Source: Falsirhodobacter flavus (lineage in GTDB: Bacteria; Pseudomonadota; Alphaproteobacteria; Rhodobacterales; Rhodobacteraceae). From it: a stretch of DNA of 53,356 nt. The stretch lies in NCBI GenBank assembly GCA_029846755.1, contig JARWBI010000015.1, positions 1 through 53,356 of the forward strand, written 5' to 3'. A program made the position numbers and the translations under genes. This document shows positions 14,672 through 46,142 of the stretch, in pieces (within the stretch, counting starts at the first letter, position 1; the number at the start of each line of letters is the position of its first letter). The notes beneath the pieces are model-generated. The model was not told where the DNA came from, did not search any database, and was given only the letters and a program-made list of their open reading frames with translations.

Positions 14672-14732
14672 GGGTTCCTCCCTTGCCGCCATTGTTCGCA
14701 TCATTTCTGGCGGCACAAGCGCAAATGTTCGG

Positions 14733-27036: not shown

Positions 27037-27172
27037 CGTTCGTCTCATTGATGATTGCGCATTCAACATCCGCGCGATTTGATCCCGCTGTCAAGAATGC
27101 TGTCGCGGCCCTTTCATAAATGCCCGAAAAAAGGACTATTATGCTTTTCGTGCGTGGGGGCATCCAGGGCAG

Positions 27173-28371: not shown

Positions 28372-29894
28372 GCGTCCCGGCGCTTCGGGTCAGCGGGATC
28401 GCCAAGACTTTCGGGGGCGCCCGCGCGCTCAAGGGGATCAGCTTCGACGTGGCGGCGGGCGAGGTTCACGGCCTTCTGGGCCAGAACGGGTGCGGAAAAT
28501 CGACCTTCGTGAAGGTGCTGGCGGGGTTCCACGCCCCCGATCCGGGCGGCATGATCGAAGTGTTCGGCAAACCGCTTCCGTTCCCCATGCCCCCCGGCGC
28601 GTTCCGCGATTACCGCATGGCCTTCGTGCATCAGCATCTGGGACTGGTGCCGACGCTTTCGGTGCTGGAAAACCTGCGGGTGGCGTCGATCACCGCCCGC
28701 AAGGCCCGCGTCAACTGGCGCGAGGAACGCGCCGCCGCCCGCGCCACCTTTGCCCGGTTCGGCGTGGCGCTGGACCTGAGCGCGCGCACGGGCAGCCTGT
28801 CGCAAACCGATCAGGCGCTGCTGGCGATCATGCGCGCCGCCGAGGATCTGCGCGGCGCGGACGGGCCCGGACTTCTGATTTTGGACGAGCCGACGCCCTT
28901 CCTGCCGAAAGAGGGCGTGGACCGGCTGTTCGCGCTGGTCCGGCAGGTGGTGGCGCATGGCGACAGCGTCATCTTCATCTCGCACGATATCGACGAGGTG
29001 CGCGCGATCACCGACCGCGCCACGATCCTGCGCGACGGGTTGGTCAGCGGCACATTGACGACCAAGGGGTCCAGCCACGACGATTTCGTCGAAGGCATCA
29101 TCGGTCGCCGCATCGCCCGCAGCGTCACCGCGCCTTCCATCACGCGGGGCCGGACCCTTGCCCGCGTCACGGGCGTTGCGGAACCCGGCCTCGACATCCC
29201 CGCGCTGGAAGTGGCCGAGGGCGAGATCCTCGGCCTGACCGGGCTTTTGGGCTCGGGATACGAGCGCGTTCCATATCTGATGTTCGGTGCGCGCGAGGCC
29301 GCGGGGGGCGATCTGCACATGGGCGGGAAAACCATCCCGCTGCGCGCCATGACGCCGAAAGCGGCCATCGCGCGGAAAATGGCGCTGCTGCCCTCCGACC
29401 GTCCGGGGGCCAGCGGCGTTCCGGGGTTGAAGGTGCGCGACAACATGCTGCTGCTGGAGCTGGACGACTTCATGGGCCGTTTCGGGTTGAACCTGCGCGC
29501 CATGGGCCGCCGCGCCAGCGCGCTTTCGACCGAATACGAGGTGCGCCCCGCCAATCCCGACATGCGTCTCGGCCAGCTGAGCGGGGGGAACGCGCAAAAG
29601 GTTCTTCTGGCCAAATGGATGATCCGCACTCCCGATCTTCTGCTGCTGGACGAACCGACCCAAGGCGTCGATGTCGGCACCCGCCAGCAGATCTATCGCG
29701 TGATCCGCGATGCGGCGGCGCGGGGGGCGGGCGTGATCTGCGCCAGTTCCGATGCCGAACAGCTTGCCGATCTCTGCACGCGCGTTCTCATCTTTTCGCG
29801 CGGGCGTATCGCGGTCGAACTGACCGGCCAAGACATCACGAAAGACAGTATCGCAGAGGCCTGCTATGGACACTCCACTCTCGACGTCGCCTGA
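28368..29894 (+). CDS. Sugar ABC transporter ATP-binding protein (RbsA/MglA type)
   Basis: This 508-residue tandem ABC ATPase has an active N-terminal Walker A GQNGCGKST (residues 38-46) and Walker B LLILDEPTPFL with switch His in IFISHDIDE. The second domain has the degenerate Walker A of RbsA proteins (LTGLLGSGYE) but an intact signature LGQLSGGNAQKVLLAK and Walker B LLLLDEPTQGVDVG. The first domain's signature is LSQTDQ, also typical. It is coupled to the SBP gene (ATGA) and overlaps the permease by 29 bp. It energises import of a sugar or polyol. Confidence 0.93.
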   Translation: MSVPALRVSGIAKTFGGARALKGISFDVAAGEVHGLLGQNGCGKSTFVKVLAGFHAPDPGGMIEVFGKPLPFPMPPGAFRDYRMAFVHQHLGLVPTLSVLENLRVASITARKARVNWREERAAARATFARFGVALDLSARTGSLSQTDQALLAIMRAAEDLRGADGPGLLILDEPTPFLPKEGVDRLFALVRQVVAHGDSVIFISHDIDEVRAITDRATILRDGLVSGTLTTKGSSHDDFVEGIIGRRIARSVTAPSITRGRTLARVTGVAEPGLDIPALEVAEGEILGLTGLLGSGYERVPYLMFGAREAAGGDLHMGGKTIPLRAMTPKAAIARKMALLPSDRPGASGVPGLKVRDNMLLLELDDFMGRFGLNLRAMGRRASALSTEYEVRPANPDMRLGQLSGGNAQKVLLAKWMIRTPDLLLLDEPTQGVDVGTRQQIYRVIRDAAARGAGVICASSDAEQLADLCTRVLIFSRGRIAVELTGQDITKDSIAEACYGHSTLDVA

Positions 29895-30861
29895 ACGTCG
29901 GCGCTTCAACGTGGCGGATTTCACGGAACGGTTCGGGCTGGTCCTGGTCTGGATCGTCATGATCGCGGGTTTCGGCATCCTACTTCCGGGCATCTTCCTG
30001 TCATGGATGAACTTTTCGATCATGTTCGCCACGCAGAGCCCAGGCGCTGTGCTGGCGCTGGCGCTGATCATTCCGCTGACGGCGGGGGATTACGATCTGT
30101 CGGTCGGCGCGACGCTGACGCTGTCGGCGGTGACGGTCGGGGTGCTGAACGCGGTGATGGGCCTGCCGCTGGGCGTTGCCGTTCTGGCGGCGCTGGCGGG
30201 CGGGATCGCGGTCGGTCTGGTGAACGCATTCTTCATCGTCTATGTCCGCATCCCGTCGCTGGTCGTCACGCTTGGCACCACGTCGGTCATCACCGGGCTG
30301 GTGCAGTGGATGACGAACTCGTCCACCATCGGGGGGATTTCGCCGACATTGGTGAACATGGTCATGCGCGGGCGGCTGTTCGGCATTTCCTATGCGTTCT
30401 ACTACGTCATCGCGATCGCTCTGGTGATCTGGCTGGTGTTCGAGTTCACGCCGCTGGGCCGCCGTATCCTGTTCGTGGGCCGCGGGCGCGAGGTTGCGCG
30501 CCTGTCGGGCATCGACGTGGGGCGGGTGCGGGTCGGCTGTCTTGTCGCCTCGGCGCTGCTGTCCTCGATCGGTGGGCTGGTCTATGCGGGGCTTCTGGGC
30601 GCGGCGGACCCGTTCTCGGGGCTGAACTTCCTGCTGCCGGCATTCGCTGCGGCTTATCTGGGGGCGACGGCGATCATTCCGGGGCGGTTCAATCCGTGGG
30701 GGGCGGTCATCTCGGTCTATTTCCTTGCGACCGGCATCACGGGGCTGACGATGATGGGCATTCCGCTGTGGGTGACCAGCGTGTTCAACGGCGCGGCGCT
30801 GATCCTTGCCGTCACGGTGTCGCAATTCGTCCGTGGACGGCAGGAGACGGATATCGGATGA
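29866..30861 (+). CDS. Sugar ABC transporter permease (RbsC type)
   Basis: The 331-residue protein has eight to ten membrane helices. Conserved RbsC features are ALIIPLTAGDYDLSVGATLT (the GxxDLSVG motif, about residue 66), VRIPSLVVTLGTTSVITGLV, and AYLGATAIIPGRFNPWGAVI. The ATG at 29866 lies within the ATPase gene (29-bp overlap) with AGAGG before it. It forms a homodimeric pore with the RbsA-type ATPase. The 3' end overlaps the epimerase gene by 4 bp. Confidence 0.92.
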   Translation: MDTPLSTSPERRRFNVADFTERFGLVLVWIVMIAGFGILLPGIFLSWMNFSIMFATQSPGAVLALALIIPLTAGDYDLSVGATLTLSAVTVGVLNAVMGLPLGVAVLAALAGGIAVGLVNAFFIVYVRIPSLVVTLGTTSVITGLVQWMTNSSTIGGISPTLVNMVMRGRLFGISYAFYYVIAIALVIWLVFEFTPLGRRILFVGRGREVARLSGIDVGRVRVGCLVASALLSSIGGLVYAGLLGAADPFSGLNFLLPAFAAAYLGATAIIPGRFNPWGAVISVYFLATGITGLTMMGIPLWVTSVFNGAALILAVTVSQFVRGRQETDIG

Positions 30862-31676
30862 AGGTTCTTGTCACCGGCGCGGCAGGATTCATCGGGCGCC
30901 ATCTTTGCGCCGCGCTTGCGGGGCACGAGGTCGTCGCCACCGACATTGCGGATGCACCCCATGTCCATGACGTCCGCGCCATCCCGCCCGAGTTGATGGC
31001 GGGCTGCGATGTGGTGATCCACGGCGGCGGCGTTTCCGGACCGATGGTTCTGGCCGATCGCCCGGCCGAGGTGATCGACATCAACGTGACCGGCACCGCG
31101 CGCCTTCTGGCGATGGCGCGAGATCTGGGGGTGGGGCGCTTCATCGGCCTGTCTTCGGTTTCGGTCTATGGCGATGCGGACGGCATCGTGACCGAGGATG
31201 CCCCCCTGCGCGCCACCAACGCCTATGGCAGCAGCAAGGCCGCGGCCGACCTGCTGATCCGTACCTATGCCCGATATGGGCTGGACACGGTCGCGCTGCG
31301 GATCGGCTGGGCCTATGGTCCGGGGCGGGTGACAGATGCGCTGATCCAGCCCGTGGTGCGCGGCGAGCCGGTTGCGGCGGGTGGCGCGCATCCGCTGCAA
31401 TTCGTGCATGTGGATGATGTAATCCGCGCGGTGCAGGCGGCGATGACGCGCGGCACGTCCGGCGCCGCCTATAACATCGACGGGGCCGAGGTGCTGACGG
31501 TGCAGCAGATCTGCGCCATGATCGCGGATGTTCCGGTGGGGCCGGGGCTGCTTCCGAGCGTGGACCTTCAGGGACCGATGGACCTTTCGGCGGCGGCCCG
31601 CGATCTGGGCTGGGCGCCGCAGGTGCCCTTCGCGGACGGGCTTGCGGATTGGGTCGCAGCGCTGAGGGCGGCATGA
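30858..31676 (+). CDS. NAD-dependent epimerase/dehydratase family protein
   Basis: A 272-residue extended SDR. The Rossmann motif GAAGFIG is at residues 7-13, the substrate-side IHGGGVSG at about residue 54, the catalytic Ser in IGLSSVSVYG, and Tyr/Lys in AYGSSK (YxxxK). FVHVDDVIRAV is typical of the C-terminal part. Unlike sugar-nucleotide epimerases it is short and lacks a long C-terminal domain, so D-erythronate/sugar-acid dehydrogenases (DenD/UDH type) are also candidates. Coupled (ATGA) to both the permease and the next SDR, it probably acts on the imported substrate or its product. Confidence 0.85.
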   Translation: MKVLVTGAAGFIGRHLCAALAGHEVVATDIADAPHVHDVRAIPPELMAGCDVVIHGGGVSGPMVLADRPAEVIDINVTGTARLLAMARDLGVGRFIGLSSVSVYGDADGIVTEDAPLRATNAYGSSKAAADLLIRTYARYGLDTVALRIGWAYGPGRVTDALIQPVVRGEPVAAGGAHPLQFVHVDDVIRAVQAAMTRGTSGAAYNIDGAEVLTVQQICAMIADVPVGPGLLPSVDLQGPMDLSAAARDLGWAPQVPFADGLADWVAALRAA

Positions 31677-32386
31677 CGTTCGCGGGCAAGACCGTCGTCG
31701 TCACCGGCGCGGGCAGCGGCATCGGGCTTGCGCTGACCTTGCAGCTTTGCGCCGGGGGGGCGCGGGTTCTGGCGCTGGACCGCCGCTTTCCCGCCATGCC
31801 CGAGGGTGCCGAATGCCTTGCCACCAATGTCTGCGACATGGGCGAATTGGCCGAAGCCGCCCGTCACGTCCCCGACGGCGTGCACGGCATCGCGGCGATG
31901 GCCGGGATCGAGATGGGCGGGCGCATCGACGAGCTGGACATCGCCGCATGGCACCGCGTGTTCGAGGTCAACGTCTTCGGCACGGTTCGCACGATCCAGA
32001 CCTTTCTGCCGGGGCTGCTGCGCCACAAGGGGTCCATCGTGCTGTGTTCTTCGCAACTGTCGCTGGCGGCTGCGCGGAACTGTCCGGCCTATGCCGCGTC
32101 CAAGGGGGCGATCAACACCCTTTGCCGCAGCCTTGCGGTGGACCACGCCGCAGAGGGCATCCGCGTGAATGCCGTCGCCCCCGGCGCGATCGAAACGCCC
32201 ATGATGACCCGCGCCTTTCGCGGCCAGCCCGACGGCGTGCGCGCCGCGATCCGTGCAAGGCACGCGATGGGGCGGTTCGGCACGGCGGATGAAGCCGCCG
32301 CCGCCGCCGCCTTTCTGCTGGGGGAGGGGGCCAGCTTCATCACCGGCGCAGTCCTGCCGGTGGACGGGGGCTGGGCCGCGGCCTAA
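31673..32386 (+). CDS. Short-chain dehydrogenase/reductase
   Basis: The 237-residue classical SDR has TGAGSGIG (residues 11-18), an AMAGIE segment in the NAG position, catalytic Ser in VLCSSQLSLA, and YAASK (Tyr/Lys). VNAVAPGAIETPM and GAVLPVDGGW complete the family. The triad is intact, so NAD(P)-dependent oxidation of a sugar, polyol or hydroxy acid is expected. It is the last gene of the ABC operon and ends in a CTAA overlap with the convergent SDR gene. Confidence 0.9.
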   Translation: MTFAGKTVVVTGAGSGIGLALTLQLCAGGARVLALDRRFPAMPEGAECLATNVCDMGELAEAARHVPDGVHGIAAMAGIEMGGRIDELDIAAWHRVFEVNVFGTVRTIQTFLPGLLRHKGSIVLCSSQLSLAAARNCPAYAASKGAINTLCRSLAVDHAAEGIRVNAVAPGAIETPMMTRAFRGQPDGVRAAIRARHAMGRFGTADEAAAAAAFLLGEGASFITGAVLPVDGGWAAA

Positions 32387-33111
32387 TCCGCCGTCCAGCC
32401 GCCATCCAGCATCAGCGCGCTGCCCGTCATCAGCCCTGCCGCGTCCGAGGCGAGGAATACCGCCGCGCCCGCGACCTCGTCCACCTGCCCCAGACGGCCA
32501 AGCTTGATCTTGGACAGGACCGACGCGCGAAAGGCCTCATCCTCGAAGAACGGCCTGGTCATCGGGGTTTCGATGAAGGTCGGGCAGATGGTGTTCACGC
32601 GGATGCCGTGCGGGCCAAGTTCGACCGCAAGCGCCTTGGTGAACCCTTCCAGCGCCCATTTCGACGCGCAGTAAAGCGTGCGGTTCGCGGCCCCCACATG
32701 CCCCATCTGCGAGGACATGTTGATGACCGACCCGCGCACCCCTGTCGCCACCATGCGCCGCGTCACCGCTTGCGCGGCAAAGATCGCGGCGCGTGTGTTC
32801 AGGCCCATGACGGCGTCGTAATCGTCCTCGGTCACTTCGGACAGGGGTTTGGGGCGGTTGGTGCCGGCGTTGTTGACGAAGATGTCGAAGGCCGGGCGGT
32901 CGTTCATCAGCGCGGCAAAGCCGGCCACATCGGTCACATCGGCGACCAGCGCATGGCCGATGCCCTGCGCCGCCGCCTCGACCTCGTCCCGGCTGCGGGC
33001 GCAGAAGGTGACCTCTGCCCCCGCGTCCGCCATCGCGCGCCCGATGGCAAGGCCGATCCCCCGGCCCGCCCCCGTCACCAGCGCGCGCCTGCCGTCCAGG
33101 CGGAACATCAT
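32383..33111 (-). CDS. Short-chain dehydrogenase/reductase next to hisD-like gene
   Basis: The protein has 242 residues with TGAGRGIG near residue 14, [10 protein letters not shown] (NAG motif), catalytic Ser in [14 protein letters not shown] (Tyr/Lys), and [11 protein letters not shown] with ALMLDGGW. All triad residues are present. The ATG at 33111 sits in the hisD-like stop codon (ATGA), so the two dehydrogenases form an operon. In DHPS degradation the HpsN dehydrogenase is likewise accompanied by alcohol dehydrogenases (HpsO, HpsP). A similar two-step polyol oxidation is plausible here. Confidence 0.9.
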
Positions 33112-34418
33112 TCCGCCGCCACGCCGTAAGGCACGTTCCGCCCGCCATAGCGGCGCACGCGGATGTTGCACTGTTCGGCATGGCCCACGAAACCTTCCAG
33201 CATGCACAGGCGCGAGCCATAGGCGCCGATCATCGCCGCCGCCTCGTCCGTGGTGATACGCTGATAGCTGTGGGTCTTCAGGTATTTGCCGACCCACAGC
33301 CCGCCCGTGTAACGCCCCGCCTTTTTCGTCGGCAGCGTGTGGTTCGTGCCGATCACCTTGTCGCCGTTGGCCACGTTGGTGCGCGGCCCGAGGAACAGCG
33401 CGCCATAGCTGTGCATGTTGTCCAGATACCAGTCGTCCCGGTCGGTCATCACCTGCACATGTTCGGACGCGATGTCGTTGGCCACCGCCAGCATCTCGTC
33501 ATGCGTGTCGCACAGGATGACCTCGCCGTAATCCTGCCAGCTTTTGCGGGCGGTGTCGGCGGTGGGCAGGATCGCCAGCAGACGTTCGATCTCGGCCAGC
33601 GTTTCCTCGGCCAACCTGCGGCTGTTCGTCAGCAGCACGGCAGGCGAGTTGTAGCCGTGTTCGGCCTGACCCAGCAGGTCGGTCGCGCACAGTTCGGCAT
33701 CCACGGTATCGTCGGCGATGACCATGGTTTCGGTCGGCCCGGCGAACAGGTCGATCCCCACACGGCCGAAAAGCTGCCGCTTCGCCTCGGCCACGAAGGC
33801 GTTGCCGGGGCCGACCAGCATATCAACGGGCTGAATCGTTTCGGTGCCGATCGCCATCGCGCCGATGCCCTGAATGCCGCCCAGCACATAGATTTCATGC
33901 GCGCCAGCCATGTGCATGGCGGCGATGACGGCCGGGTTCGGCTCGCCTTTGAACGGGGGGGTTGCGGCGATGATGCGCGGGGCGCCCGCGACGGCGGCGG
34001 TCAGCACCGACATATGCGCCGATGCGACCATCGGGAACTTGCCACCCGGAACATAGCAGCCGACCGACTGCACCGGAATGTTGCGATGGCCGAGGATCAC
34101 GCCCGGAAGCGTCTCGACCTCGATATCCTGCATCGAATCCCGCTGCGCCTGCGCAAAGCGGCGCACCTGATCCTGCGCAAAGCGGATGTCCTCCAGATCG
34201 GAGGGCGACACGCGGGCGATCAGCGCGTCGATCTGGTCCTGCGACAAACGGAAGCTTTCGGGGGTATAGCCGTCGAACTTCGCCGCCATCTCGCGCACGG
34301 CGGCATCGCCGCGGGCTTCGATATCGGCAAGGGCGGCTTCGACGGTGCGGCGAACCTCGGCGTCATCCTCGCTGCGGGCTTCGACGGGCTTTCCGGACTT
34401 CAGATACTGGACGGGCAT
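33108..34418 (-). CDS. hisD: Histidinol dehydrogenase family protein, HpsN (sulfopropanediol dehydrogenase)-like
   Basis: The 436-residue protein spans the whole HisD fold: [65 protein letters not shown] (with the catalytic Glu-His), [16 protein letters not shown], and [19 protein letters not shown]. The last two and the [15 protein letters not shown] stretch match HpsN, which oxidises 2,3-dihydroxypropane-1-sulfonate to sulfolactate with NAD, better than biosynthetic HisD. No histidine genes adjoin, supporting a catabolic role. No sulfolactate lyase is visible, so another polyol remains possible. It is divergent from a LacI regulator. Confidence 0.87.
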
Positions 34419-34486: not shown

Positions 34487-34529
34487 TGAAATTATTTCAT
34501 CTTGTGGCGCGAGATTTGAATACGTATTC
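34487..34529. promoter_or_regulatory. Two palindromes between hisD-like and lacI genes
   Basis: GAATACGTATTC at 34518-34529 is a perfect 12-bp palindrome centred 33 bp before the lacI start. TGAAATTATTTCA at 34487-34499 is a second near-perfect palindrome 18 bp to the left. Both lie in the 138-bp divergent gap. Paired symmetric sites of this kind suit a LacI-type repressor controlling both directions. Confidence 0.5.
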
Positions 34530-34556
34530 TGCGCTGCCGCAACGAAGGATTTTCCC

Positions 34557-35579
34557 ATGAAGCCGATCATCGGACGCGTAACGTCGATGGACGTGGCCGC
34601 CCTTGCGGGTGTGTCGCAATCGGCCGTATCGCGTGCCTTCACGCCCGGATCGTCGCTGTCGGCGGCCAAGCGGGAGCTGATCCTGTCGGCGGCGAAGAAG
34701 CTGAATTATGTCCCGAACTCCATCGCCTCCAGCCTGACGACGCGGCGCACGAACATGGTGGCGGTGATCCTGGGGAATCTGGACAACCCGTTCTATGTGC
34801 TGGTGTTGAAGGCGCTGGCGGCGCGTCTGCAACAGCGCGGCACGCAGATCCTGACCTTCACGGTCGAAAACGGCGCCAGCAGCGACGATGCCTTGATGCG
34901 GGTGCTGCGCTATCAGGTGGACGGGATCATCCTGACCTCGGCGCAGCTTTCGACGCGGATGACCAGCATGTGCCATGATCGCGGCATTCCGGTGGTGCTG
35001 TTCAACCGTTACATCCCCGGCAGCGATGCGTCGGGCGTGCGTTGCGACAACGCGGCGGGCGGGCGGCTGATGGCGGATGCCTTGCTGAAGGCCGGGGCGC
35101 GCAGCTTTGCCGTGCTGAAGGGCGATCCCCGCGGCTCTACCAGTCAGGATCGCTTCCAGGGCTTTGCCGAACGGCTGCTGGAAGATGGCATCCCCCGATC
35201 CGCCATTCTGGAGCTGGAGGGGCAGTCGATCTATCGCGGGGCCCATGCGGCGGTGCTTCGCGCGTTTCAGGACGAGGGGCAAAAGGTCCCGGACGCCATA
35301 TTCGGCATCAACGACACGATGGCGATGGGGGCGATGGACGCGCTGCGCGGCGTGATGGGCCTGCGGGTGCCGGATGACGTGATGATCGGCGGCTTCGACA
35401 ACATCGACGAGGCCGACCACTGGCCTTACCGCCTGACCACCGTGCGCCAGCCCGCCGAGGAAATGGCGGACGAGACGCTGAAGCTGCTGGATCTGGACAA
35501 TCCAGGGGCCGAGATTCAGCCGGGCATCGACATCAAGCTGCCCGGCGAACTGGTCTGGCGCGATTCGATCCCGCGCTAG
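34557..35579 (+). CDS. LacI family transcriptional regulator
   Basis: The 340-residue protein has a LacI HTH at the N-terminus (SMDVAALAGVSQSAVSRAFT, residues 10-29), a hinge region VPNSIASSLTTRRTN, and an effector domain with ILGNLDNPFY, VVLFNRYIPG, VRCDNAAGGRL and IGGFDNIDEA. The ATG at 34557 starts immediately before the HTH. It is divergent from the hisD-like operon, with two palindromes in between. It is probably the local repressor of the dehydrogenase operon and perhaps of the ABC operon ending at 32.4 kb. Confidence 0.92.
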   Translation: MKPIIGRVTSMDVAALAGVSQSAVSRAFTPGSSLSAAKRELILSAAKKLNYVPNSIASSLTTRRTNMVAVILGNLDNPFYVLVLKALAARLQQRGTQILTFTVENGASSDDALMRVLRYQVDGIILTSAQLSTRMTSMCHDRGIPVVLFNRYIPGSDASGVRCDNAAGGRLMADALLKAGARSFAVLKGDPRGSTSQDRFQGFAERLLEDGIPRSAILELEGQSIYRGAHAAVLRAFQDEGQKVPDAIFGINDTMAMGAMDALRGVMGLRVPDDVMIGGFDNIDEADHWPYRLTTVRQPAEEMADETLKLLDLDNPGAEIQPGIDIKLPGELVWRDSIPR

Positions 35580-36466
35580 CTGTCCTGAACCTTGCGCGCG
35601 GCAAGGATGCGCCCGTCGCGCCATGCCTGCCAATCGGGGATCTCGTCCACCGGGAAGCGCGCGGCCATCTGGTCGTGGATGCTGTCGATCAGCGGCTGGT
35701 CCCAGTCGTAATCGGTGCGGGCATCCTCGCCCATCCTGCGCATCATTGGCCCAAGCTGGCCGACGAAGCCCTTGAACCCCTCCGTCGCGTTCAGATGCGC
35801 CGTGGCGAAGGGCCCGATCGACAGCCAGCGCAGGGCCAGCCCGTCGGTCATCACGCGGTCGATGTCTTCCGCCGTGCAGTAACCCTCGCCCACCAGATGC
35901 AGCGCCTCGGCCACCAGCGTGTATTGCAGCCGGTTGAGAAGGAAGCCGTCGATTTCCCGCGTCAGCGCGACCGGCTTCATGCCAAGGCTGTCCATGAACG
36001 CCCGCGCCCGCGCCATCGCATCGTCGGACGTCGCGCCCGTGCCGCACAACTCCACCAGCGGGATCAGCGAGGGCGGGTTCACCGGATGCGCCACCAGCGC
36101 CCGTTCGGGCTGCGGGATATGCGTCATGAAGGTCGATCCCGGCAGCGCCGAGGTCGAGGACGCGATCACGCAATCCATCGGCGCATGGGCGGCGATGTCC
36201 GACATGACGGCGCGCTTGATCTCCGTATCCTCGCGCACGCTTTCCTGCACGTGGACCGCACCCGCAACCGCTTCGGCGACCGAGGACGCCGCGCGGATGT
36301 CGCCCGAGACACCAAGCTGTTCCATCGTCCGCGCGATCAGCGGCAGCGCGGCGGCCACCTGCGCGGGGTCGGCATCGTAAAGCGCGACCTCATGCCCCGC
36401 GCGGGCAAAGACGACGGCCCATGCGCGGCCGACATTGCCGGACCCGATACAAGCGACGCGGGCCAT
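35576..36466 (-). CDS. 3-hydroxyacyl-CoA dehydrogenase family protein (lambda-crystallin/gulonate dehydrogenase-like)
   Basis: The 296-residue protein has an N-terminal NAD-binding ACIGSGNVGRAWAVVFARAG (residues 5-24), the acidic residue YDAD after beta-2, catalytic-type Ser in IASSTSALPGSTF, His in VAHPVNPPSLIPLVE, and DGFLLNRLQYTLVAEAL. Short stand-alone members without a second HAD repeat are often L-gulonate 3-dehydrogenase or L-carnitine dehydrogenase-like rather than fatty-acid enzymes. The ATG at 36466 overlaps the lyase stop (TGATG). It is the last gene of the leuC-leuD operon and would oxidise a hydroxy acid produced there. Confidence 0.87.
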   Translation of the reverse strand: MARVACIGSGNVGRAWAVVFARAGHEVALYDADPAQVAAALPLIARTMEQLGVSGDIRAASSVAEAVAGAVHVQESVREDTEIKRAVMSDIAAHAPMDCVIASSTSALPGSTFMTHIPQPERALVAHPVNPPSLIPLVELCGTGATSDDAMARARAFMDSLGMKPVALTREIDGFLLNRLQYTLVAEALHLVGEGYCTAEDIDRVMTDGLALRWLSIGPFATAHLNATEGFKGFVGQLGPMMRRMGEDARTDYDWDQPLIDSIHDQMAARFPVDEIPDWQAWRDGRILAARKVQDS

Positions 36467-37335
36467 CAGCCTGCCTTCCTTGCCCAACGCTTCTCGAACT
36501 CCCACACCTCGGGGAAGCCGATAAGCTGATTGAACTCGCCGAAATCGAACAGGTCTTGCGCGGGGGTCTGCGAAGTGCCCGTCGCCTTGAACGCCGCCAG
36601 CGCGTTGAAGGCGGCCTGCGCGGCGGCCAGCCCGGTCATCGCCGGATAGATCGCCATGCTGAAGCCGATCTCCCGAAGCGTATTCGCATCAAGGATCGGC
36701 GTCTTGCCGCCATCGGCCATATTGGCCAGCATGGGCGCGCGGATGCGGCGGCAGGCCTCGCGCATCTCGGCCTCGGATTCCAGGGCTTCAAGGAAGATCA
36801 CGTCGGCCCCGGCTTCGGCAAAGGCAAGGCCGCGGGCCACGGCGCCCTCGAACCCCTCGATCTGGCGGCAGTCGGTGCGGGCGATGATGACCGTTTCGGA
36901 ATTGCGCCGCGCCTCGCAGGCGACCTTGATCTTTTCCACCATGTCGATCACCGGCACCACGCGCTTGAAGGGCGTGTGGCCGCATTTCTTGGGAAATTCC
37001 TGATCCTCGATCTGGATGGCGGCGACGCCCGCCTCCTCGTATCCGCGCACGGTATGGTGGACGTTCAAAAGCCCGCCATAGCCGGTATCGGCATCCGCGA
37101 TGATGGCGGCATCGCTGGTCCGGCACAGCGTCGCGACACGGTCCACCATCTGCGAATAGGTCACGATCCCCGCATCCGGCACACCATAGGCCGAGGCGGT
37201 CATCCAGTATCCGGTGGCATAGCCGAACTCGATCCCCACCTTGTTGGCGACGACGGCGGTGATCATGTCGTGAAGACCGGGGGCCGCCACGAATTTTCCA
37301 GCCGCCAGCGCGGCCTTCAGGCTGGGTTTGCTCAT
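36466..37335 (-). CDS. Isocitrate lyase/PEP mutase superfamily lyase (copy 2)
   Basis: The 289-residue paralogue of the lyase at 9.8 kb has DADTGYGG at 81-88, EDQEFPKKCGH ending at residue 120, IIARTDCR and a C-terminal FGEFNQLIGF. The KKCGH loop points to C-C lysis of a malate-type substrate. It lies between an amidohydrolase and a dehydrogenase in an operon with leuCD-like hydratase subunits, as expected for a dimethylmalate- or methylisocitrate-type pathway that ends in pyruvate or glyoxylate plus an acid. It is coupled by ATGA and TGATG overlaps to its neighbours. Confidence 0.9.
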   Translation of the reverse strand: MSKPSLKAALAAGKFVAAPGLHDMITAVVANKVGIEFGYATGYWMTASAYGVPDAGIVTYSQMVDRVATLCRTSDAAIIADADTGYGGLLNVHHTVRGYEEAGVAAIQIEDQEFPKKCGHTPFKRVVPVIDMVEKIKVACEARRNSETVIIARTDCRQIEGFEGAVARGLAFAEAGADVIFLEALESEAEMREACRRIRAPMLANMADGGKTPILDANTLREIGFSMAIYPAMTGLAAAQAAFNALAAFKATGTSQTPAQDLFDFGEFNQLIGFPEVWEFEKRWARKAG

Positions 37336-37961
37336 GCGTTCAATCCTGCAAGATATGCGATGGTTTCGGCTTCGCTGACGACGTCGCCGTATTTCGCGTT
37401 CATGTCGAAAAGATTGGCCTCGTGCGGGGCGGGGTGGCGGTCGCCCACAGCCTCGCGCGGGATGATCGGGATGAAGCCATGTGCGTTGGCATCCACACAG
37501 GACGCGCGCACGCAGCCGGATGTGGAAACCCCGGTCAGGATCACGGTATCCACACCCATCGTCACGAGCGTCGGTGCAAGCGACGTGCCGAAGAACGCGC
37601 TGGCATGTTGCTTGGAGATGACAAGCTCATCCTCGGACGGCGCAAGTCCCGGCGCCCAGGCACCCCATTCGCCGCCCTGCCGGAAATGGCGCAGCGGCAG
37701 GGATTTTTGATAGAAGCGCCCGCCGTCCAGCGCCCTGGGATGATAGACGACATTGGTATAGATGATCGGGATGTCCGACGCGCGCGCGGCGTCGCGCAGC
37801 CGGATCGCCGATTCCAGCGCGGAATCGCAATCGGCCCAAAGATCGCACCCTTTGTCGAAATAGCCGAGCACGAGATCGATCAGGATCAGCGCAGGCTTTT
37901 TGCCGAAGCCAAGCTTGCCGCCAAACGCACGGGCATAGTTTTCGCCAAGATCTTCGCTCAT
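37332..37961 (-). CDS. Isochorismatase-family amidohydrolase (N-carbamoylsarcosine amidase/maleamate hydrolase-like)
   Basis: The 209-residue cysteine hydrolase has the family triad Asp29 (LILIDLVLGYF), Lys117 (VISKQHASAF) and Cys150 in TGVSTSGCVRASCVDA. These residues follow N-carbamoylsarcosine amidase and maleamate amidohydrolase (NicF) more than true isochorismatases. It cleaves a carbamoyl or amide group to release ammonia. It overlaps the lyase by 4 bp and is preceded by the leuD-like gene, so its product could be the unsaturated diacid hydrated by LeuCD-like enzymes. Nicotinamidase-like activity is an alternative. Confidence 0.87.
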   Translation of the reverse strand: MSEDLGENYARAFGGKLGFGKKPALILIDLVLGYFDKGCDLWADCDSALESAIRLRDAARASDIPIIYTNVVYHPRALDGGRFYQKSLPLRHFRQGGEWGAWAPGLAPSEDELVISKQHASAFFGTSLAPTLVTMGVDTVILTGVSTSGCVRASCVDANAHGFIPIIPREAVGDRHPAPHEANLFDMNAKYGDVVSEAETIAYLAGLNA

Positions 37962-38596
37962 TCGGAACCTTCCTTGATGTCGTCGAAATGCGCGATCTGC
38001 TGCGCTGTCAGATAGAGCCACGGGCGCGCTGCCCGCTGCGCGGCCTCGAACGCCGCGATGTCGGCGGCATCGTCGCGCAGGATGGCCCCGACCTCGTCCA
38101 GCCCCTCCAGCAGGGACCGTTTGCGATGGGCCTCGATGTGGAACCCGATCTCGCCATCGACAAGGACGATGCGCTGTTCGGGAAGGTCCACGGTGATCTG
38201 CTGCCGCGCCTCGGCCGCCGCCATGACGCGCGCGTGCGCGTCCGGGGGCAGGACGATCGGCAAGACGCAGCTGCGAAAGCAGTTTGCGTGAAAAATCTCG
38301 CCGAAGCTGGTGCCGATGACGCAACGGATGCCAAAGTCGGCCAGCGCCCAGACCGCCTGTTCGCGACTGGAACCGGTGCCGAAATCTGGCCCGGTCACGA
38401 GGATTCTGGCACCGTCCCAGGGCGGGGTGTCCAGCACGAAGCCGCCCTTGGCGCGGCGTTCGTGAAACAGATGACGGCCCAGCCCGCGTTTTTCCAGCAG
38501 CAGAAGAAAGCGCGCAGGAAAGATCACGTCGGTGTCGATCTGGCCCTCGGGGAAAGGCGCGGCGATGGCGGTCAGATGGATGAACGGCTCGATCAT
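37958..38596 (-). CDS. leuD: LeuD-like small subunit of an isopropylmalate/dimethylmaleate-type (de)hydratase
   Basis: The 212-residue protein has the aconitase swivelling-domain pattern: [52 protein letters not shown] and [18 protein letters not shown]. The length is slightly above a typical LeuD. It is coupled by ATGA to leuC and to the amidohydrolase. No leuA or leuB is present, so leucine biosynthesis is unlikely. A catabolic hydratase such as dimethylmaleate hydratase (DmdB), citraconase or methylaconitate-type is more probable. Confidence 0.88.
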
Positions 38597-40011
38597 TGCA
38601 GCCCCCGCACGTCGCAAAGCCGGCCCGCGATGGCGGCGGCGGCGGCCATTTCCGGGCTCATCAGATGGGTGCGCCCGCCGATCCCCTGCCGCCCCTCGAA
38701 GTTGCGGTTGGAGGTGGAGGCGCAGCGTTCGCCTTCGGACAATCGGTCGTCATTCATGCCGACGCACATCGAACAGCCCGCATCGCGCCATTCGAAACCC
38801 GCATCGGTGAAGATACGGTCCAGCCCCTCGGCCTCGGCGGCGATGCGGACCTGCGCCGATCCGGGCACGGCCATCGCGCTGACGCCATTCGCCACGTGCC
38901 TGCCGCGCAGGATGGTCGCGGCGCGTCGCAGATCCTCCAGACGGCCATTGGTGCAGGAACCGATGAAGACGCGGTCGATGGCGATTTCCTCCAGCGGGGT
39001 TCCGGGGGCAAGGCCCATGTAATCGAGGCTGCGCCGCATCCGGGCCTGCCGCGCGGGATCGTCGACCTGCGCGGGGTCGGGAACGCGGCCCGTCACGGGC
39101 AGCGATTCCTCGGGGGTGGTGCCCCAGCTGACATGCGGCGCAAGCGTGGCGGCGTCGATCTCCACCTCGCGGTCGAAAACGGCACCGGGGTCGCTGTGCA
39201 GCAGCGCCCAATCGCGAAGCGCCGCGGGTTCGTCACCGGGCAGGGGCGACAGCGGACGCCCCCGCACCCAGTCCAGTGTCGTGGCGTCGGGCGCGATCAG
39301 ACCGACACGGGCGCCCGCCTCGATCGTCATGTTGCAAAGCGTCATCCGCGCTTCCATCGACAGGGCGCGGATGGCAGGACCGGCATATTCGATCGCAAAG
39401 CCGATGCCTCCGCCCACCCCGATCCGCGCTATCAGCGAAAGGATGATATCCTTGACGGATACTCCGTCCGGCAGGGCGCCCGTCACGGTCACGCGCATGT
39501 TCCGCTGCCGCTTCTGACGCAGCACCTGGGTCGAGAATACGCATTCACATTCACTGGCGCCGATGCCGAAGGCCAACGCGCCGAAGGCGCCATGCGTGCT
39601 GGTATGGCTGTCGCCGCAGACGAGGGTGCATCCGGGCAGGGTGAACCCAAGCTCCGGCCCGATGACGTGGACGATCCCGTGCCGGCGGTCATTCATCGGA
39701 ATATAGGGAATCGCATGGATCGCGGTGTTCTCCCGCAGTCGCGCGACCTGTGCCGCGGCCAGCCCTTCGCGCAGCGTGACATGGCGATCCTTGGTGGGAA
39801 CAGCATGATCTGCCACGGCAATATGCGCGTCTGGCCGATGCAGGGCGCGCCCCGCCGCCGCCATTCCCGCAAAGGCCTGGGGCGAGGACACCTCCTGCAC
39901 CAGATGACGGTCGATATACAGAAGATCTGTGCCATCCGCATATGTTTTGACCACATGCGCATCCCAGATCTTGTCGAAAAGGGTTCTTGCTGGAGGAAGA
40001 AGATCGGTCAC
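38593..40011 (-). CDS. leuC: LeuC-like large subunit of an isopropylmalate/dimethylmaleate-type (de)hydratase
   Basis: The 472-residue protein is colinear with LeuC. Iron-sulphur ligands are Cys353 in FIGSCTNGR and Cys413/Cys416 in GCSMCVGMN. Other aconitase signatures are [34 protein letters not shown] and [15 protein letters not shown]. With LeuD it would add or remove water across the double bond of a small diacid in the cytoplasm. It heads an operon leuC-leuD-amidohydrolase-lyase-dehydrogenase, all overlapped by 1-4 bp, and shares a 124-bp divergent promoter gap with hyuA. Confidence 0.92.
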
Positions 40012-40054: not shown

Positions 40055-40070
40055 TTGCAAGCGCATTCAA
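40055..40070. promoter_or_regulatory. TTGCAAGCG-type operator-like site C
   Basis: TTGCAAGCGCATTCAA lies 44 bp before the leuC start and 66 bp before hyuA in their shared gap. Six of eight base pairs around its central CG are symmetric. It matches sites at 23437 and 27204 over TTGCAAGCG and AT, so a common repressor is possible. Confidence 0.45.
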
Positions 40071-40135: not shown

Positions 40136-42181
40136 ATGAGGCTGGGTGTCGATGTCGGAGGGACGTTCACGGACCTTCTGCTGCATGACGAGGCGACGGG
40201 GCGGGTGTGGCAGGCGAAGACGCCCTCCACCCCGCAGGACCAATCCATCGGCGTGGCCGAAGGTGTGCGCCTGATCTGCGAAAAAGCCGGTATTTCCACT
40301 GCCGATCTGGACATGGTGCTGCACGGAACGACCGTGGCGACCAATGCCGTGCTGGAAGGGAAGGGCGCGCGCGTCGGGCTGTTGACGACCAAGGGTTTCG
40401 AATACGTGCTGCATCTGGCGAAAAGCTGGACGCCGGGGCCGCTGTTCGGTTGGATCGTGATGGACAAGCCGACCCCGCTGGCCACGCTGTCGGACACGCG
40501 CGGCATTCCCGAACGCGTCGCCGCCGATGGCCGCGTGATCGACGCGCTGGACACCGAGGCCGCGACCCGCGCCATCGACGATCTGTGCACCAGCGGGATC
40601 GAGGCGCTGACCATCTCGCTCATGCATTCCTATGCCAACCCCGACCATGAACGGCAGCTGCGCGAGATCGTGGCCACGCGCCATCCGCATATTCCGGTGT
40701 CGCTGTCATCCGACATCCTGCCGGAGTTTCGTGAATACGACCGCACCATCACGACCGTGATGAACGACTACGTGCGCCCGATCATGACGCGCTATCTGGA
40801 CCGGATCGAGGAACGGCTGGCGGCGAACGACGTGCGCTCGCATCTGCATATCGTGCGTTCGGACGGCGGGCTGATGTCGGCCAAGATGGCGGGCGACCGG
40901 CCGGTGCACACGGTGCTGTCGGGCCCGGCAGGGGGCGTCACATCGACCGTCATGGTGTCGCAGCGCACGGGGCACGATCTTCTGGCCTTCGACATGGGCG
41001 GCACCTCGACCGACGTTTCGGTGATCATCGACGGCAAGCCGACCATCTCGCGGTCCACCGAGGTCGGCGCGTTTCCGGCCAAGGTGCCGACGCTGGACGT
41101 GCGTTCGGTCGGCGCGGGCGGCGGGTCCATCGCCGAGGTGGTCGATCTGACGCGATCCCTGCGTGTCGGGCCGCGCAGCGCGGGCGCACAGCCGGGGCCG
41201 GTCTGTTACAGCCGCGGCGGGACCGAGCCGACCGTTTCCGATGCCAACGCCGTTCTGGGCTATCTGCCGCCGGTGCTTCTTTCGGGCGCGATGTCGCTGG
41301 ACATCGACGGCGCGCGCAAGGCCATCGCCACCGTCGGCGACAAGCTGGGCCTGTCGGTCGAGGACGCCGCCAAGGGCATCCTGCAGATCGCGAACGAGGT
41401 GATGCTGGGCGCGCTGCGGGTCATCACCGTGCAACGCGGCCTCGATCCGCGCGACTTCGGCATTCTGGCCTTCGGCGGCGCGGGTCCGCTGCATGCGAAC
41501 GCGATGGCGGAACTCTTGGGCTGCTACCCTTGCGTCGTGCCGCCGAATCCGGGCGTTCTGTCGGCGCTGGGCTTCCTTGAATCCGAATTCAAGAACGAAT
41601 TCGTGCAGACCTTCATCCGATCCTCGCGCAACACCGAGCCGTCGATGATCTGGGACCGCTTCGCCGATCTGGCGACCCGTGCCCGCGCATGGCTGGACGA
41701 ACAGCAGGTGGCCGAGGGCGACCGCCGTCTGATCTATTCGCTGGACCTGCGGTATGAGCAGCAGGGATACGAGGTGTCGGTGGAGGTGGACCCCGATCTG
41801 GTCGCAGGCCAAGGCGCGCTGGAGCCGATCTTCGACCAGTTCCACGGGCTGCACGAACGCATGTATGGTGTGCGTTTCCACGTTCCGGTGGAGATGGTGG
41901 CGCTGCGCGTCGTGGCCGTCGGCGCGACCGCGCCCGTCGATGTGCAGACCCCGAATGGCGGTGGCGATCCGGTGGCGGCGATCATCGAGACGCGCCCCGC
42001 CTATTTCGACGGCGCATGGGTCGATACCCCCAACTATGACCGCACGAAGCTGGCCGTGGGCGCCAAGATCCAGGGCCCCGCGATCATCCGCCAATACGAC
42101 AGCACGACCGTCCTGCTGCCGCGCCACACAGCCGAGGTCGACAGCTTCGGCAACCTGATGATCTGGCCCGAGGAGGTCTGA
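40136..42181 (+). CDS. Hydantoinase/oxoprolinase family protein, A subunit (HyuA)
   Basis: The 681-residue protein has the actin-like ATPase fold of HyuA. DVGGTFTD is at residues 6-13, LHGTTVATNAVLEGKGA follows, then DMGGTSTDVSVI, GAGGGSIAEV and FGGAGPLHANAMAELLG. It is shorter than 5-oxoprolinase, as expected for a two-gene system with HyuB just downstream (3-bp gap). Characterised members open cyclic amides with ATP (N-methylhydantoin, 5-oxoproline) or carboxylate acetone/acetophenone. AGGGAGAA lies before the ATG at 40136. It is divergent from the leuC operon, suggesting linked metabolism. Confidence 0.9.
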   Translation: MRLGVDVGGTFTDLLLHDEATGRVWQAKTPSTPQDQSIGVAEGVRLICEKAGISTADLDMVLHGTTVATNAVLEGKGARVGLLTTKGFEYVLHLAKSWTPGPLFGWIVMDKPTPLATLSDTRGIPERVAADGRVIDALDTEAATRAIDDLCTSGIEALTISLMHSYANPDHERQLREIVATRHPHIPVSLSSDILPEFREYDRTITTVMNDYVRPIMTRYLDRIEERLAANDVRSHLHIVRSDGGLMSAKMAGDRPVHTVLSGPAGGVTSTVMVSQRTGHDLLAFDMGGTSTDVSVIIDGKPTISRSTEVGAFPAKVPTLDVRSVGAGGGSIAEVVDLTRSLRVGPRSAGAQPGPVCYSRGGTEPTVSDANAVLGYLPPVLLSGAMSLDIDGARKAIATVGDKLGLSVEDAAKGILQIANEVMLGALRVITVQRGLDPRDFGILAFGGAGPLHANAMAELLGCYPCVVPPNPGVLSALGFLESEFKNEFVQTFIRSSRNTEPSMIWDRFADLATRARAWLDEQQVAEGDRRLIYSLDLRYEQQGYEVSVEVDPDLVAGQGALEPIFDQFHGLHERMYGVRFHVPVEMVALRVVAVGATAPVDVQTPNGGGDPVAAIIETRPAYFDGAWVDTPNYDRTKLAVGAKIQGPAIIRQYDSTTVLLPRHTAEVDSFGNLMIWPEEV

Positions 42182-42184
42182 ACC

Positions 42185-43942
42185 ATGCACGTCGATCCCA
42201 TCACGCTGGACATCATCGAAAACGCCCTGAAGAATGCGCGGTTCGAAATGGACAACGTCGTCCTTCGCATCGCCCTGTCGCCCGCCGTGCGCGAACAGCA
42301 CGACGAATTCCCCATGATCTGCAATCCCGCCGGGCAGATGATCGTGGGGCAGTTCGGATCGTACATCCCCGCCGTGGTCGAAAAATTCGGCGGCGACATC
42401 AACGAAGGCGATGTCTTCGTCTGGAACGATCCCTATGCCTGCAAGGGTTCCATCTCGCACAACAACGACTGGTGCGTGATGATGCCGATCTTCCATGGCG
42501 GCATCCATGTCGGTTTCAGTTCGATCTTCGGGCATATGACGGATGTGGGCGGTTCGGTCCCCGGTTCCATGCCCGCGAATGCCCGCACGATTTGGGAAGA
42601 GGGGCTGCGCGTGCCGCCCGTGCGCATCTACTCCAAACACGTCCTGAACGACGGGGTGCTGGAGATCATGCTGAACAACAGCCGCACGCCCGACATGAAC
42701 CGCGCCGACCTGATGGCGTTGATCGCCGGGTGCCGCACGGCGGGCAAGCGTGTGAGCGAGCTGTGCGAACGCTTCGGGCATGAAACCTATCTGGCCGCCT
42801 GCGATCTGCTGATGCTGCGCACGCGCGATGCGATGAAGGTCATCATCGACCAGTATATCTCGGAAGACCCGGTCGAATTCGAGGATTACGTCGACGATGA
42901 CGGCCTTGGAAACGGGCCGTTCAAGATGAAACTGTCGATCTATCGCCGGGGCGAAAAGGCGGTGTTCGATTTCACCGGCACCGATGATCAGGCCGAGGGG
43001 CCGATCAACTTCCACATCCACGAAGGGCTGTGCAAGCTGTTCTTCGGCGTCTACATGATCATGGCGTTCGATCCTTCGATCAACTTCAACGAAGGGTTCT
43101 ATGACCTGTTCGAGGTGGTGCTGCCCGAAGGCTCGCTTCTGAACCCGAAATTCCCGGCTGCGCTGTCGAACCGTCTGAACACCCACACGCGCTTCTTCGA
43201 CTGTCAGGCGGGGGCTTTGGGCCAGCGTGCGCCGCATCTGTCGATGGCGGCGGGATACGGCACCTCGCCGCATTTCATCTTCACGGGGACGGATGGCGAG
43301 GGGCGGTATTTCCAGCTGATGGAGCTTTTGTTCGGCGGCGTTCCGGGCCGTCCGCGCGGCGACGGTCTGGACGGTCACGCATGGTGGCCGCTGTTTTCCG
43401 CGACCCCGATCGAATACATCGAGAACTATTATCCCGTTCTGGTGGACAGCTATCGACCGGTGCGCGATTCCGGCGGTGCGGGCCTGCATCGCGGCGGCGC
43501 GGGGATCGAGAAGGTCTACCGCATTCTGGAACCGGGCATGGTGTCCATCCACGACGACCGCGAGATCGTGCCGCCATGGGGCATCAACGGTGGGCTGTTC
43601 GGCGGCACATCGGAAAAATGGATCCTGCGCGCGGGAACGACGGAGCGCGAACGCATCCCGTCCAAGATCGACAACCTTGCCGTCCAGCCGGGCGACCGGA
43701 TTATCTTCATCACCGCAGGGTCCGGGGGCTGGGGCGATCCGCTCGCGCGCGATCCGGCGCTGGTGGCCCGCGACGTGGCGCATGACCTGGTATCGCGCCA
43801 GCGGGCCGAACGGGATTACGGCGTGATCCTCTCCGATGACGGTGCCGTGGCCCCTGCCGAAACGGCGGCGCTGCGCGCCCGGATGACGGATGGCCGCGGC
43901 CAGCCCGAACCCTTCTCCTTCGGGTTCGCCCCGGCCGCCTGA
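42185..43942 (+). CDS. Hydantoinase B/oxoprolinase family protein (HyuB)
   Basis: The 585-residue partner of HyuA shows PITLDIIENALKNARFEMDN at the N-terminus, DEFPMICNPAGQMI, FVWNDPYACKGSISHNND (the metal-binding segment), FSSIFGHMTDVGG, and the Gly-rich C-terminal GSGGWGDPLARDP. It follows hyuA by 3 bp and must form the A2B2-type complex. The order A then B on one operon is common for ATP-dependent cyclic amidases and acetone-carboxylase-like enzymes. A gamma subunit is not present, making acetone carboxylation less likely. Confidence 0.9.
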   Translation: MHVDPITLDIIENALKNARFEMDNVVLRIALSPAVREQHDEFPMICNPAGQMIVGQFGSYIPAVVEKFGGDINEGDVFVWNDPYACKGSISHNNDWCVMMPIFHGGIHVGFSSIFGHMTDVGGSVPGSMPANARTIWEEGLRVPPVRIYSKHVLNDGVLEIMLNNSRTPDMNRADLMALIAGCRTAGKRVSELCERFGHETYLAACDLLMLRTRDAMKVIIDQYISEDPVEFEDYVDDDGLGNGPFKMKLSIYRRGEKAVFDFTGTDDQAEGPINFHIHEGLCKLFFGVYMIMAFDPSINFNEGFYDLFEVVLPEGSLLNPKFPAALSNRLNTHTRFFDCQAGALGQRAPHLSMAAGYGTSPHFIFTGTDGEGRYFQLMELLFGGVPGRPRGDGLDGHAWWPLFSATPIEYIENYYPVLVDSYRPVRDSGGAGLHRGGAGIEKVYRILEPGMVSIHDDREIVPPWGINGGLFGGTSEKWILRAGTTERERIPSKIDNLAVQPGDRIIFITAGSGGWGDPLARDPALVARDVAHDLVSRQRAERDYGVILSDDGAVAPAETAALRARMTDGRGQPEPFSFGFAPAA

Positions 43943-43982: not shown

Positions 43983-44468
43983 TCAGACCGGTTCGGCCTG
44001 ACCCAGCCCGCCGTATCTGCCGCCGTGAAACAGCAGCGGCGGGGCGGGATCGTGGGTGAAGTCCAGCACCTCGGCCACGAAGATGACGTGATCGCCGCCG
44101 TCGTAGCGATGTCTGGTCACGCATTCGAAGCGCGCGGTGCAGCCGTGAAGCAGCGGGATGCCCGCCGCCCCGCGCGCAACCGTCAGCCCCGCGAACTTGT
44201 CCTCGGCCTTGCCTGCGAAACGGGCCGACAGGTCGGCCTGTTCGGCGGACAGCACATGCACGGCGAAATGGGTGGCGTCGTGGAACGCGGCGTGGCTGGC
44301 CGAGGCGCGCGCGAGGCTCCACAGCACCATCGGCGGCGATAGCGAGACCGAGCTGAAGCTGTTGGCGGTGCGGCCCACGTCCCTGCCTGCCGCATCGCGC
44401 GTGGTGATGACCGTGACGCCGGTGGCGAAGGCGCCCAGGGCGTCACGGAACTGTCTGGGATCGCTCAT
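43983..44468 (-). CDS. Flavin reductase (FMN reductase, HpaC/RutF-like)
   Basis: The 161-residue protein has the flavin reductase split-barrel fold: FRDALGAFATGVTVITTRDA (residues 7-26), GRTANSFSSVSLSPPMVLWS, FAVHVLSAEQADLSARFAG, and a terminal LLFHGGRYGG. Such enzymes supply reduced FMN to a two-component monooxygenase. The likely client is the DszA/NtaA-type monooxygenase at 46.1-47.5 kb in the same minus-strand run; the RutA-like protein at 26 kb is another. It is coupled (ATGA) to the DUF4387 gene. Confidence 0.9.
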   Translation of the reverse strand: MSDPRQFRDALGAFATGVTVITTRDAAGRDVGRTANSFSSVSLSPPMVLWSLARASASHAAFHDATHFAVHVLSAEQADLSARFAGKAEDKFAGLTVARGAAGIPLLHGCTARFECVTRHRYDGGDHVIFVAEVLDFTHDPAPPLLFHGGRYGGLGQAEPV

Positions 44469-44776: not shown

Positions 44777-44777
44777 G

Positions 44778-46139: not shown

Positions 46140-46142
46140 GAC

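Follow-up and report, generated by a model that had tools for sequence, protein, structure and literature searches.

A five-gene operon (genes A to E, minus strand, 40011-35576) on a 53,356-nucleotide contig of Falsirhodobacter flavus (GenBank assembly GCA_029846755.1, contig JARWBI010000015.1; the whole contig is called the window here) is, in our reading, the core of a larger LacI-controlled catabolic unit that also includes the divergent hyuAB genes and an ATP-binding cassette (ABC) importer, and in which a lactam or imide would be converted to a half-amide, an unsaturated diacid and a hydrated diacid that is finally cleaved at a C-C bond (probability about 0.6). Every reaction in this scheme, and the substrate, is read from protein family and gene context. 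The importer, of the sugar type, would take up a nitrogen-containing compound; HyuAB, of the ATP-dependent lactam/hydantoin hydrolase type, would open a lactam or cyclic imide to a substituted maleamate-type half-amide; C would strip the amide as ammonia, leaving a substituted unsaturated diacid; A/B would hydrate the diacid to a substituted malate; and D would cut its C2-C3 bond, releasing a carboxylic acid together with a 2-oxo acid, which would be pyruvate for a methyl substituent. Remaining hydroxyls would be oxidised by E, a HisD-like enzyme and SDR dehydrogenases and, in relatives, by an Fe-alcohol dehydrogenase as well. Enzyme families of leucine synthesis, the methylcitrate cycle and hydantoin/creatinine breakdown would thus be joined in one apparently co-regulated route. 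This reading yields a short, concrete list of substrates for testing, and in such loci the LeuD signature and the gene context could serve to rename genes now annotated as leuC, leuD or methylisocitrate lyase.

An earlier note on this DNA had described five overlapping genes for a LeuCD-like hydratase, an amidohydrolase, a KKCGH lyase and a dehydrogenase, and both the sequence and profile matches bear this out. Neighbouring genes overlap by 1 to 4 bases per junction, with starts read from the sequence at 40011 (A, GTG), 38596 (B, whose ATG overlaps the stop of A; 38617 in the list of open reading frames), 37961 (C), 37335 (D) and 36466 (E; 36505 in that list). A (38593..40011, minus strand) is a LeuC-type hydratase large subunit that passes the NCBIfam LeuC cut-off (TIGR00170; 672.1 versus 560.25 bits) and retains the Fe-S cysteine motifs GSCTN (residue 351) and CSMC (413), and B (37958..38596, minus strand) is a LeuD-type small subunit (TIGR00171; 149.8 versus a cut-off of 116.25 bits) with an altered sequence stretch and GSSREQ replacing GSSREH. 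The remaining three minus-strand genes encode a cysteine amidohydrolase of the N-carbamoylsarcosine/maleamate amidase group (C, 37332..37961; Pfam isochorismatase, 122.4), a C-C lyase of the PEP mutase/isocitrate lyase family with a KKCGH active-site loop (D, 36466..37335; Pfam PEP_mutase, 126.7) and a dehydrogenase of the 3-hydroxyacyl-CoA-dehydrogenase/lambda-crystallin type (E, 35576..36466; Pfam 3HCDH_N, 133.6). The best solved relative of E is lambda-crystallin, and its score lies slightly below the cut-off of the best equivalog (327.9 versus 347); the 'HAD' label that the note gave this dehydrogenase holds for the family if it is taken to mean hydroxyacyl dehydrogenase. The extent of the unit had been drawn too narrowly, since it also takes in the divergent hyuAB genes and operator-marked genes to about 27.05 kb. 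HyuA (40139..42181, plus strand), a hydantoinase/oxoprolinase-type subunit A divergent from A, and HyuB (42185..43942, plus strand), a hydantoinase B/oxoprolinase-type subunit, score over the Pfam cut-offs for Hydantoinase_A and Hydantoinase_B, respectively, and below those for the caprolactamase CapAB (NF050156/NF050157, 1000; HyuA 505.1, HyuB 221.7).

The grouping of A to E is not due to chance, because the complete set or much of it is found again in other bacteria. A search with C yielded 53 named loci, which we split at 52% identity into 40 close and 13 distant loci, along a line drawn after the maps had been seen. Linkage was counted by tblastn with known proteins (E<=1e-12, short loci retained) in preference to a simple reading-frame caller, which predicted some apparently antisense frames where loci were rich in GC (clusters 20, 23 and 55 among others). 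The 40 close loci contain HyuA in 19 cases, HyuB in 18 (the matches in L044 are low, at 33 and 28%), LeuC and LeuD in 12 each, a PEP mutase-family (PEPM) lyase in 20, an HMG-CoA-lyase-like (HMGL) gene in 18, a CaiB-type CoA transferase in 16, a TonB receptor in 11, an imidase-like gene in seven, an arylmalonate-decarboxylase-type (AMDase) gene in seven, an FAD monooxygenase in six, E in five and HisD in three. A ring opener (HyuAB or imidase-like) is present in 25 of these loci, a C-C lyase in 32 and both in 22. HyuA, HyuB, LeuC, LeuD, both lyases, CaiB and the imidase were found in none of the 13 distant loci and none of 17 control stretches, against which only the window-derived families provide a clean test; AMDase occurs in 1/13 distant loci and SDR in 2/17 controls. 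The controls were arbitrary 20-kb stretches from the window's own family (20 were asked for, 17 existed), and the C loci come from many groups, among them Alpha- and Gammaproteobacteria, with part of the route also in a Chloroflexi bin and a Gemmatimonadetes bin. Among the three imidase-like references, two match Pfam polysaccharide deacetylase and the third has no Pfam match but is similar to PuuE allantoinase structures. In genome G067 the genes follow one another on one strand as RutA-like monooxygenase, LeuC, LeuD, C, D, E, HyuA and HyuB, and an Allorhizobium plasmid carries LacI, LeuC, LeuD, D and the Fe-alcohol dehydrogenase together. Some clades have CaiB and HMGL genes in the same context. 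Strict mutual exclusion of LeuCD and HMGL was rejected, both being present in L036, L055 and L067; replacement of LeuCD by HMGL is a tendency only, seen clearly in the TonB-receptor group, in which none of 11 loci has LeuC or a PEPM lyase and nine have HMGL.

A second line of evidence is a shared operator-like site. A 10-base word common to the leuC upstream regions of six loci extends to the palindrome TTGAATRCGYATTCAA, which we infer is probably the operator bound by the adjacent LacI-family regulator, its presumed owner (34557..35579, plus strand), whose gene travels with the unit. In the window the palindrome lies in the divergent leuC/hyuA gap (40055..40070, 2 mismatches), in the gap between the hisD-like gene and lacI (34516..34531, 2 mismatches to the R/Y pattern and 3 to the Y-only pattern) and upstream of the importer binding-protein gene (27051..27066, 2 mismatches). 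At <=2 mismatches, it occurs at six places in the 4.02-Mb genome, comprising these three, position 41577 within hyuA and two outside the window, and the reversed control pattern occurs at none; the Y-only pattern at <=3 mismatches gives nine strand-counted matches in the window, compared with a shuffle mean of 0.67 and 0/100 shuffles reaching nine. The scan across loci covered 15 sequences, the LeuC loci L047, L101 and L102 lying outside it, and found the palindrome in 11, including the leuC/hyuA gap of all eight loci with the head-to-head arrangement (window and near-twin counted), and 340 kb of control stretches held none. Elsewhere it stands in the importer/lacI gap (several loci), before the Fe-alcohol dehydrogenase gene (G188), before C (Salipiger) or before leuC (Allorhizobium). 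Recurrence upstream of leuC is partly circular, because the motif came from these regions, and neither L034, nearly identical to the window, nor L042 and L045, nearly identical to each other, are independent; the importer site, the hisD/lacI site and the genome-wide count are independent of motif discovery, and the window's own leuC/hyuA site is outside the six loci sharing the exact word.

C falls into the N-carbamoylsarcosine/maleamate amidohydrolase group by its isochorismatase family and by D29, K117 and C150, which we take to be the Asp-Lys-Cys catalytic triad and which are conserved in 38/39 (one gap), 39/39 and 39/39 homologues, respectively. Its best solved relatives are N-carbamoylsarcosine amidohydrolases (26st, 158.7 bits), followed by 3ot4 (122.3 bits) and 4l07, presumably the maleamate amidases NicF and Hin. 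Resemblance to the latter two entries would suit a nicotinate-like route in which C frees plain maleate from maleamate, A/B forms D-malate and D acts elsewhere, and maleate hydratases of the LeuCD type do exist. We nevertheless regard this route as unlikely: it yields unsubstituted malate with no need for a C-C lyase, yet most close C loci have a PEPM or HMGL lyase (32/40), and no 2,5-dihydroxypyridine dioxygenase family was detected among the window proteins scanned, a subset of the window's genes. Plain maleate would not need either lyase, and the strongest hint to a substituted maleate, in agreement with the earlier note, comes from the clades with CaiB and HMGL; they suggest that the hydrated diacid would be a tertiary hydroxy acid with an alkyl group at C2.

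The higher score of C with N-carbamoylsarcosine amidohydrolase (158.7 versus 122.3 bits for 3ot4), together with the placement of HyuAB in hydantoinase families, recalls instead the creatinine/N-methylhydantoin route, which combines an ATP-dependent hydantoinase with N-carbamoylsarcosine amidohydrolase. On that model HyuAB would open an N-substituted hydantoin and C would remove the carbamoyl group, as in N-methylhydantoin breakdown, with LeuCD and the lyase forming a separate branch. To our knowledge, hydantoin breakdown needs no LeuCD, lyase or E, and in the window all of these overlap with C in one operon and share an operator-like gap with hyuAB. The unit, which adds LeuCD, a C-C lyase and a dehydrogenase to that route, is more than a hydantoin/creatinine type, because the hydratase and lyase belong to its operon, and we consider the N-methylhydantoin-like model rather improbable.

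D carries KKCGH at residues 116-120 and groups with the PEPM-ICL lyases (ICL, isocitrate lyase) by its PEP_mutase family and KKCGH-type cysteine loop; its best solved relatives are 4iqd, the petal death protein 1zlp, a methylisocitrate lyase and the 2,3-dimethylmalate lyase 3fa3, and homologues of at least 66% identity occur in 4/295 genomes (the window genome, G067, G188 and G229). We rejected D as PrpB itself, because it scores below the cut-off of the PrpB model (TIGR02317; 256.8 versus 354.4 bits) and a better-scoring prpB (395 bits) is located on contig C50. The same two observations bear on a tricarboxylate route, in which a cis-aconitamide-like amide (for example from citrazinate, which is linked to cis-aconitamide) would lose its amide group before A/B isomerises the acid and D splits it in the manner of a (methyl)isocitrate lyase: membership of D in the ICL/methylisocitrate lyase superfamily and its PrpB match speak for such a route, but with the low score, the prpB on C50 and a 961-residue single-chain aconitase-type frame on contig C47, it is very unlikely. 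Contig C50 also has four PEPM/ICL-family genes within 40 kb (50034-89595; L166, L169-L171), one of them the probable prpB.

The LeuCD pair A/B is a second, apparently specialised copy with a small-subunit pocket predicted to be changed, because the genome has a further leuCD at a different place and B differs from canonical LeuD. The genome has three aconitase-type large subunits: A, the C47 frame and a copy on contig C22 adjoining a LeuD. A tree of 49 LeuC rows places A in a 15-row group (97/90) and the C22 copy in a separate 29-row group (100/100), which we label canonical for containing that copy; Glaciecola L047 stands outside both on a long branch, and four rows form a distant third group. 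The tree and the LeuD table omit the duplicates L003, L004 and L106, identical rows, LeuC frames of <400 or >=700 residues and LeuD frames of <150, and locus ids may differ between the LeuC row and the LeuD row of a single genome. The 37 LeuD rows comprise 16 with DTD[VIA]I[FY]P.RF (followed by GSSREQ in 14, GSSREN in one and GSSREH in one), 17 with DTDMIIPK (GSSREH in all) and four of a third type. B lacks the canonical isopropylmalate isomerase signature (DTDMIIPK plus GSSREH) and has the altered stretch, which we equate with the small-subunit recognition loop, plus GSSREQ, so that it departs from 17/17 canonical-type rows both in the DTD..RF stretch and after GSSRE. In small subunits, substrate binding depends critically on the recognition loop and the GSSRE motif (PMC7308503). 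The A type is rare, being found at >65% identity only in the window genome and G067 among the rows listed for 149 family genomes. With leuCD on C22 and prpB on C50, A/B and D need not serve leucine synthesis or the methylcitrate cycle; A/B as the cell's sole LeuCD was rejected on account of the C22 pair. That A/B is a second isopropylmalate isomerase simply carried along is highly improbable, for although A and B pass the NCBIfam LeuC and LeuD cut-offs, the C22 pair exists, B is unlike every canonical row (17/17) at both diagnostic places, and A/B are linked to C, D and hyuAB in further genera too. The third LeuD type, with SREM in the loop and GSSREH kept, occurs in L039, L055, L067 and L085, which have imidase-like genes and a second C-type amidohydrolase nearby.

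In anaerobic nicotinate breakdown, 2,3-dimethylmaleate hydratase (DmdAB) acts before 2,3-dimethylmalate lyase, and the window unit would likewise pair LeuCD-type hydration of an unsaturated branched diacid with PEPM-family cleavage. A/B are, however, of the long bacterial LeuC/LeuD type and score below the cut-offs of the DmdB-type models (A, 268.9 bits versus 410.15 for IPMI_arch, TIGR02086; B, 70.4 versus 108.95 for LeuD/DmdB, TIGR02087), for which reason we do not file them as DmdAB; the diacid here would derive from an amide, and the unit has HyuAB and a LacI regulator besides. Neither membership in the DmdAB/dimethylmaleate family nor any specific substrate is supported by the present evidence; the hydratase-then-lyase logic of the earlier note, starting from the amide of an unsaturated diacid, gains from the recurring linkage, the common operator-like site, the non-canonical LeuD, the separate leuCD and prpB, and the CaiB plus HMGL clades. 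None of the papers listed by literature searches, in a collection with poor coverage of subscription journals, describes this gene combination in its title or abstract opening.

Three further systems resemble parts of the unit or of its variants in other clades. NicF, the maleamate amidohydrolase of aerobic nicotinate breakdown, which we take to be PDB 3ot4/3uao, is a cysteine amidohydrolase of the C type; in the window, by contrast, a hydratase and lyase follow C within one operon. Itaconate/mesaconate CoA routes use a CaiB-type CoA transferase and a C-C lyase, as do the CaiB plus HMGL locus variants, whereas the window's unit showed no CoA transferase. In Aspergillus nidulans, HxnM and HxnN catalyse cyclic imide opening and then amide hydrolysis, HxnM being related to PgdA/PuuE-type proteins (PMC9304392), the family to which the imidase-like genes near C in 7/40 loci belong; the fungal product is hydroxyglutarate, and those steps involve neither hydratase nor lyase.

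Several observations weigh against the proposed reading. Of the six genomic palindrome sites, one falls within hyuA and two at other places outside the window, a 3-mismatch match occurs inside A at 39533, the loci L036, L037, L072 and L090 lack the palindrome among the 15 sequences scanned, and G067, which has the full gene set, has no site at <=2 mismatches in its whole genome. The 52% line is post hoc, and with the 53 loci undivided the counts are 25 for the ring opener, 32 for the lyase and 22 for both; the HMGL, CaiB, TonB-receptor and imidase reference proteins were drawn from the C loci themselves, which makes their control zeros a weaker test. LeuCD accompanies C in only 12/40 close loci, the LeuCD loci L042 and L045 have no PEPM or HMGL lyase in the fetched stretch, and 5/40 close loci have neither ring opener nor lyase, two of them in stretches of >13 kb (L043 and L080). 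Finally, with N-carbamoylsarcosine amidohydrolases as the best solved relatives of C, C may cleave a ureido group in place of a maleamate, the alignments fitting either, and a simple alkyl maleimide leaves the sugar-type importer and the dehydrogenases unexplained; these suggest a hydroxylated or sugar-like part in the substrate.

A narrower proposal, to which we give little credence, is that substituted maleimides left by tetrapyrrole oxidation are degraded by a widespread, so far undescribed aerobic pathway to which the unit belongs. Oxidation of haem, chlorophyll and bilins leaves methylvinylmaleimide, hydroxyethyl-methylmaleimide, ethylmethylmaleimide and haematinic acid. HyuAB or an imidase would open such a ring and C would remove ammonia to give a 2-methyl-3-R-maleate, from which hydration and cleavage would produce pyruvate and R-CH2-COOH either directly (LeuCD and PEPM lyase) or as a CoA ester (CaiB and HMGL). 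A tertiary 2-methyl-2-hydroxy diacid would be a fitting substrate for either type of lyase, and 3-hydroxybutyrate, the expected product from a 1-hydroxyethyl substituent, would match a 3-hydroxyacid dehydrogenase such as E. Tetrapyrrole genes were absent from the named neighbours, and no search aimed at such genes was made, which makes this substrate a guess.

The wider unit comprises further transport and redox genes. The importer consists of a periplasmic binding protein (27256..28371, plus strand; the start is an ATG chosen before a signal-peptide-like stretch), a sugar-type ATPase (28368..29894, plus strand; best match AraG, 0/25 best matches over cut-off) and a BPD_transp_2 permease (29866..30861, plus strand). 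Its predicted sugar type rests on the ATPase and, weakly, on the binding protein, whose solved relatives are sugar-type binding proteins matched at weak scores (best 38 bits), and for that weakness we rejected naming the substrate from the importer. It is followed by an NAD-dependent epimerase/dehydratase-like protein (30858..31676, plus strand; weak matches, all under cut-off), a second SDR-type dehydrogenase (31649..32386, plus strand; named by translation alone), an SDR dehydrogenase (32383..33111, minus strand; best NCBIfam match of the glucose 1-dehydrogenase/FabG type, 0/25 best matches over cut-off) and the HisD-like dehydrogenase (33108..34418, minus strand), a second copy to a better-scoring hisD on contig C11. 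A RutA-like flavin monooxygenase gene (25972-27069; RutA 344 bits, cut-off 498), the longest frame of which overlaps the importer operator site, has a homologue (68%) that heads the whole operon in G067 (L090). Contig C2 of G188 (L087 and L088) has two copies of the lyase, HisD and importer genes, separated by about 9 kb and with near-equal identities, which suggests a recent tandem duplication.

Two other modules lie in the window. The minus-strand operon at 43983-47510 encodes an NtaA-type monooxygenase, an AtuA-type protein, a DUF4387 protein and a flavin reductase, and adjoins a LacI-type gene named by translation. We rejected it as a member of the unit for want of linked homologues: none for NtaA, AtuA or DUF4387 was found at >=45% identity and E<=1e-30, a strict limit for the 103-residue DUF4387 protein, in the loci fetched around C, D or LeuC or as controls. 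The second module (9757-14716 and 5467-9056) contains a PEPM lyase 55% identical to D, a GntR-type gene (by reading), an arylmalonate-decarboxylase/maleate-isomerase-type protein, an FAD monooxygenase, an Fe-alcohol dehydrogenase, another AMDase-type protein and TRAP transporter genes, and is accompanied elsewhere by an imidase-like gene or a C-type amidohydrolase. In G188 a stretch of about 57 kb encloses both the unit and this module, and Salipiger L035 and a single Allorhizobium plasmid each combine parts of the two. Near other C homologues, an FAD amine oxidase, recalling nicotine degradation, is encoded at L039:4803-6227, adjoining a cytochrome-c-like frame (by translation), and at L101:9268-10857, near an FAD monooxygenase, and a DUF1838 protein is encoded near the cluster of Novosphingobium humi (L101:22751-23737).

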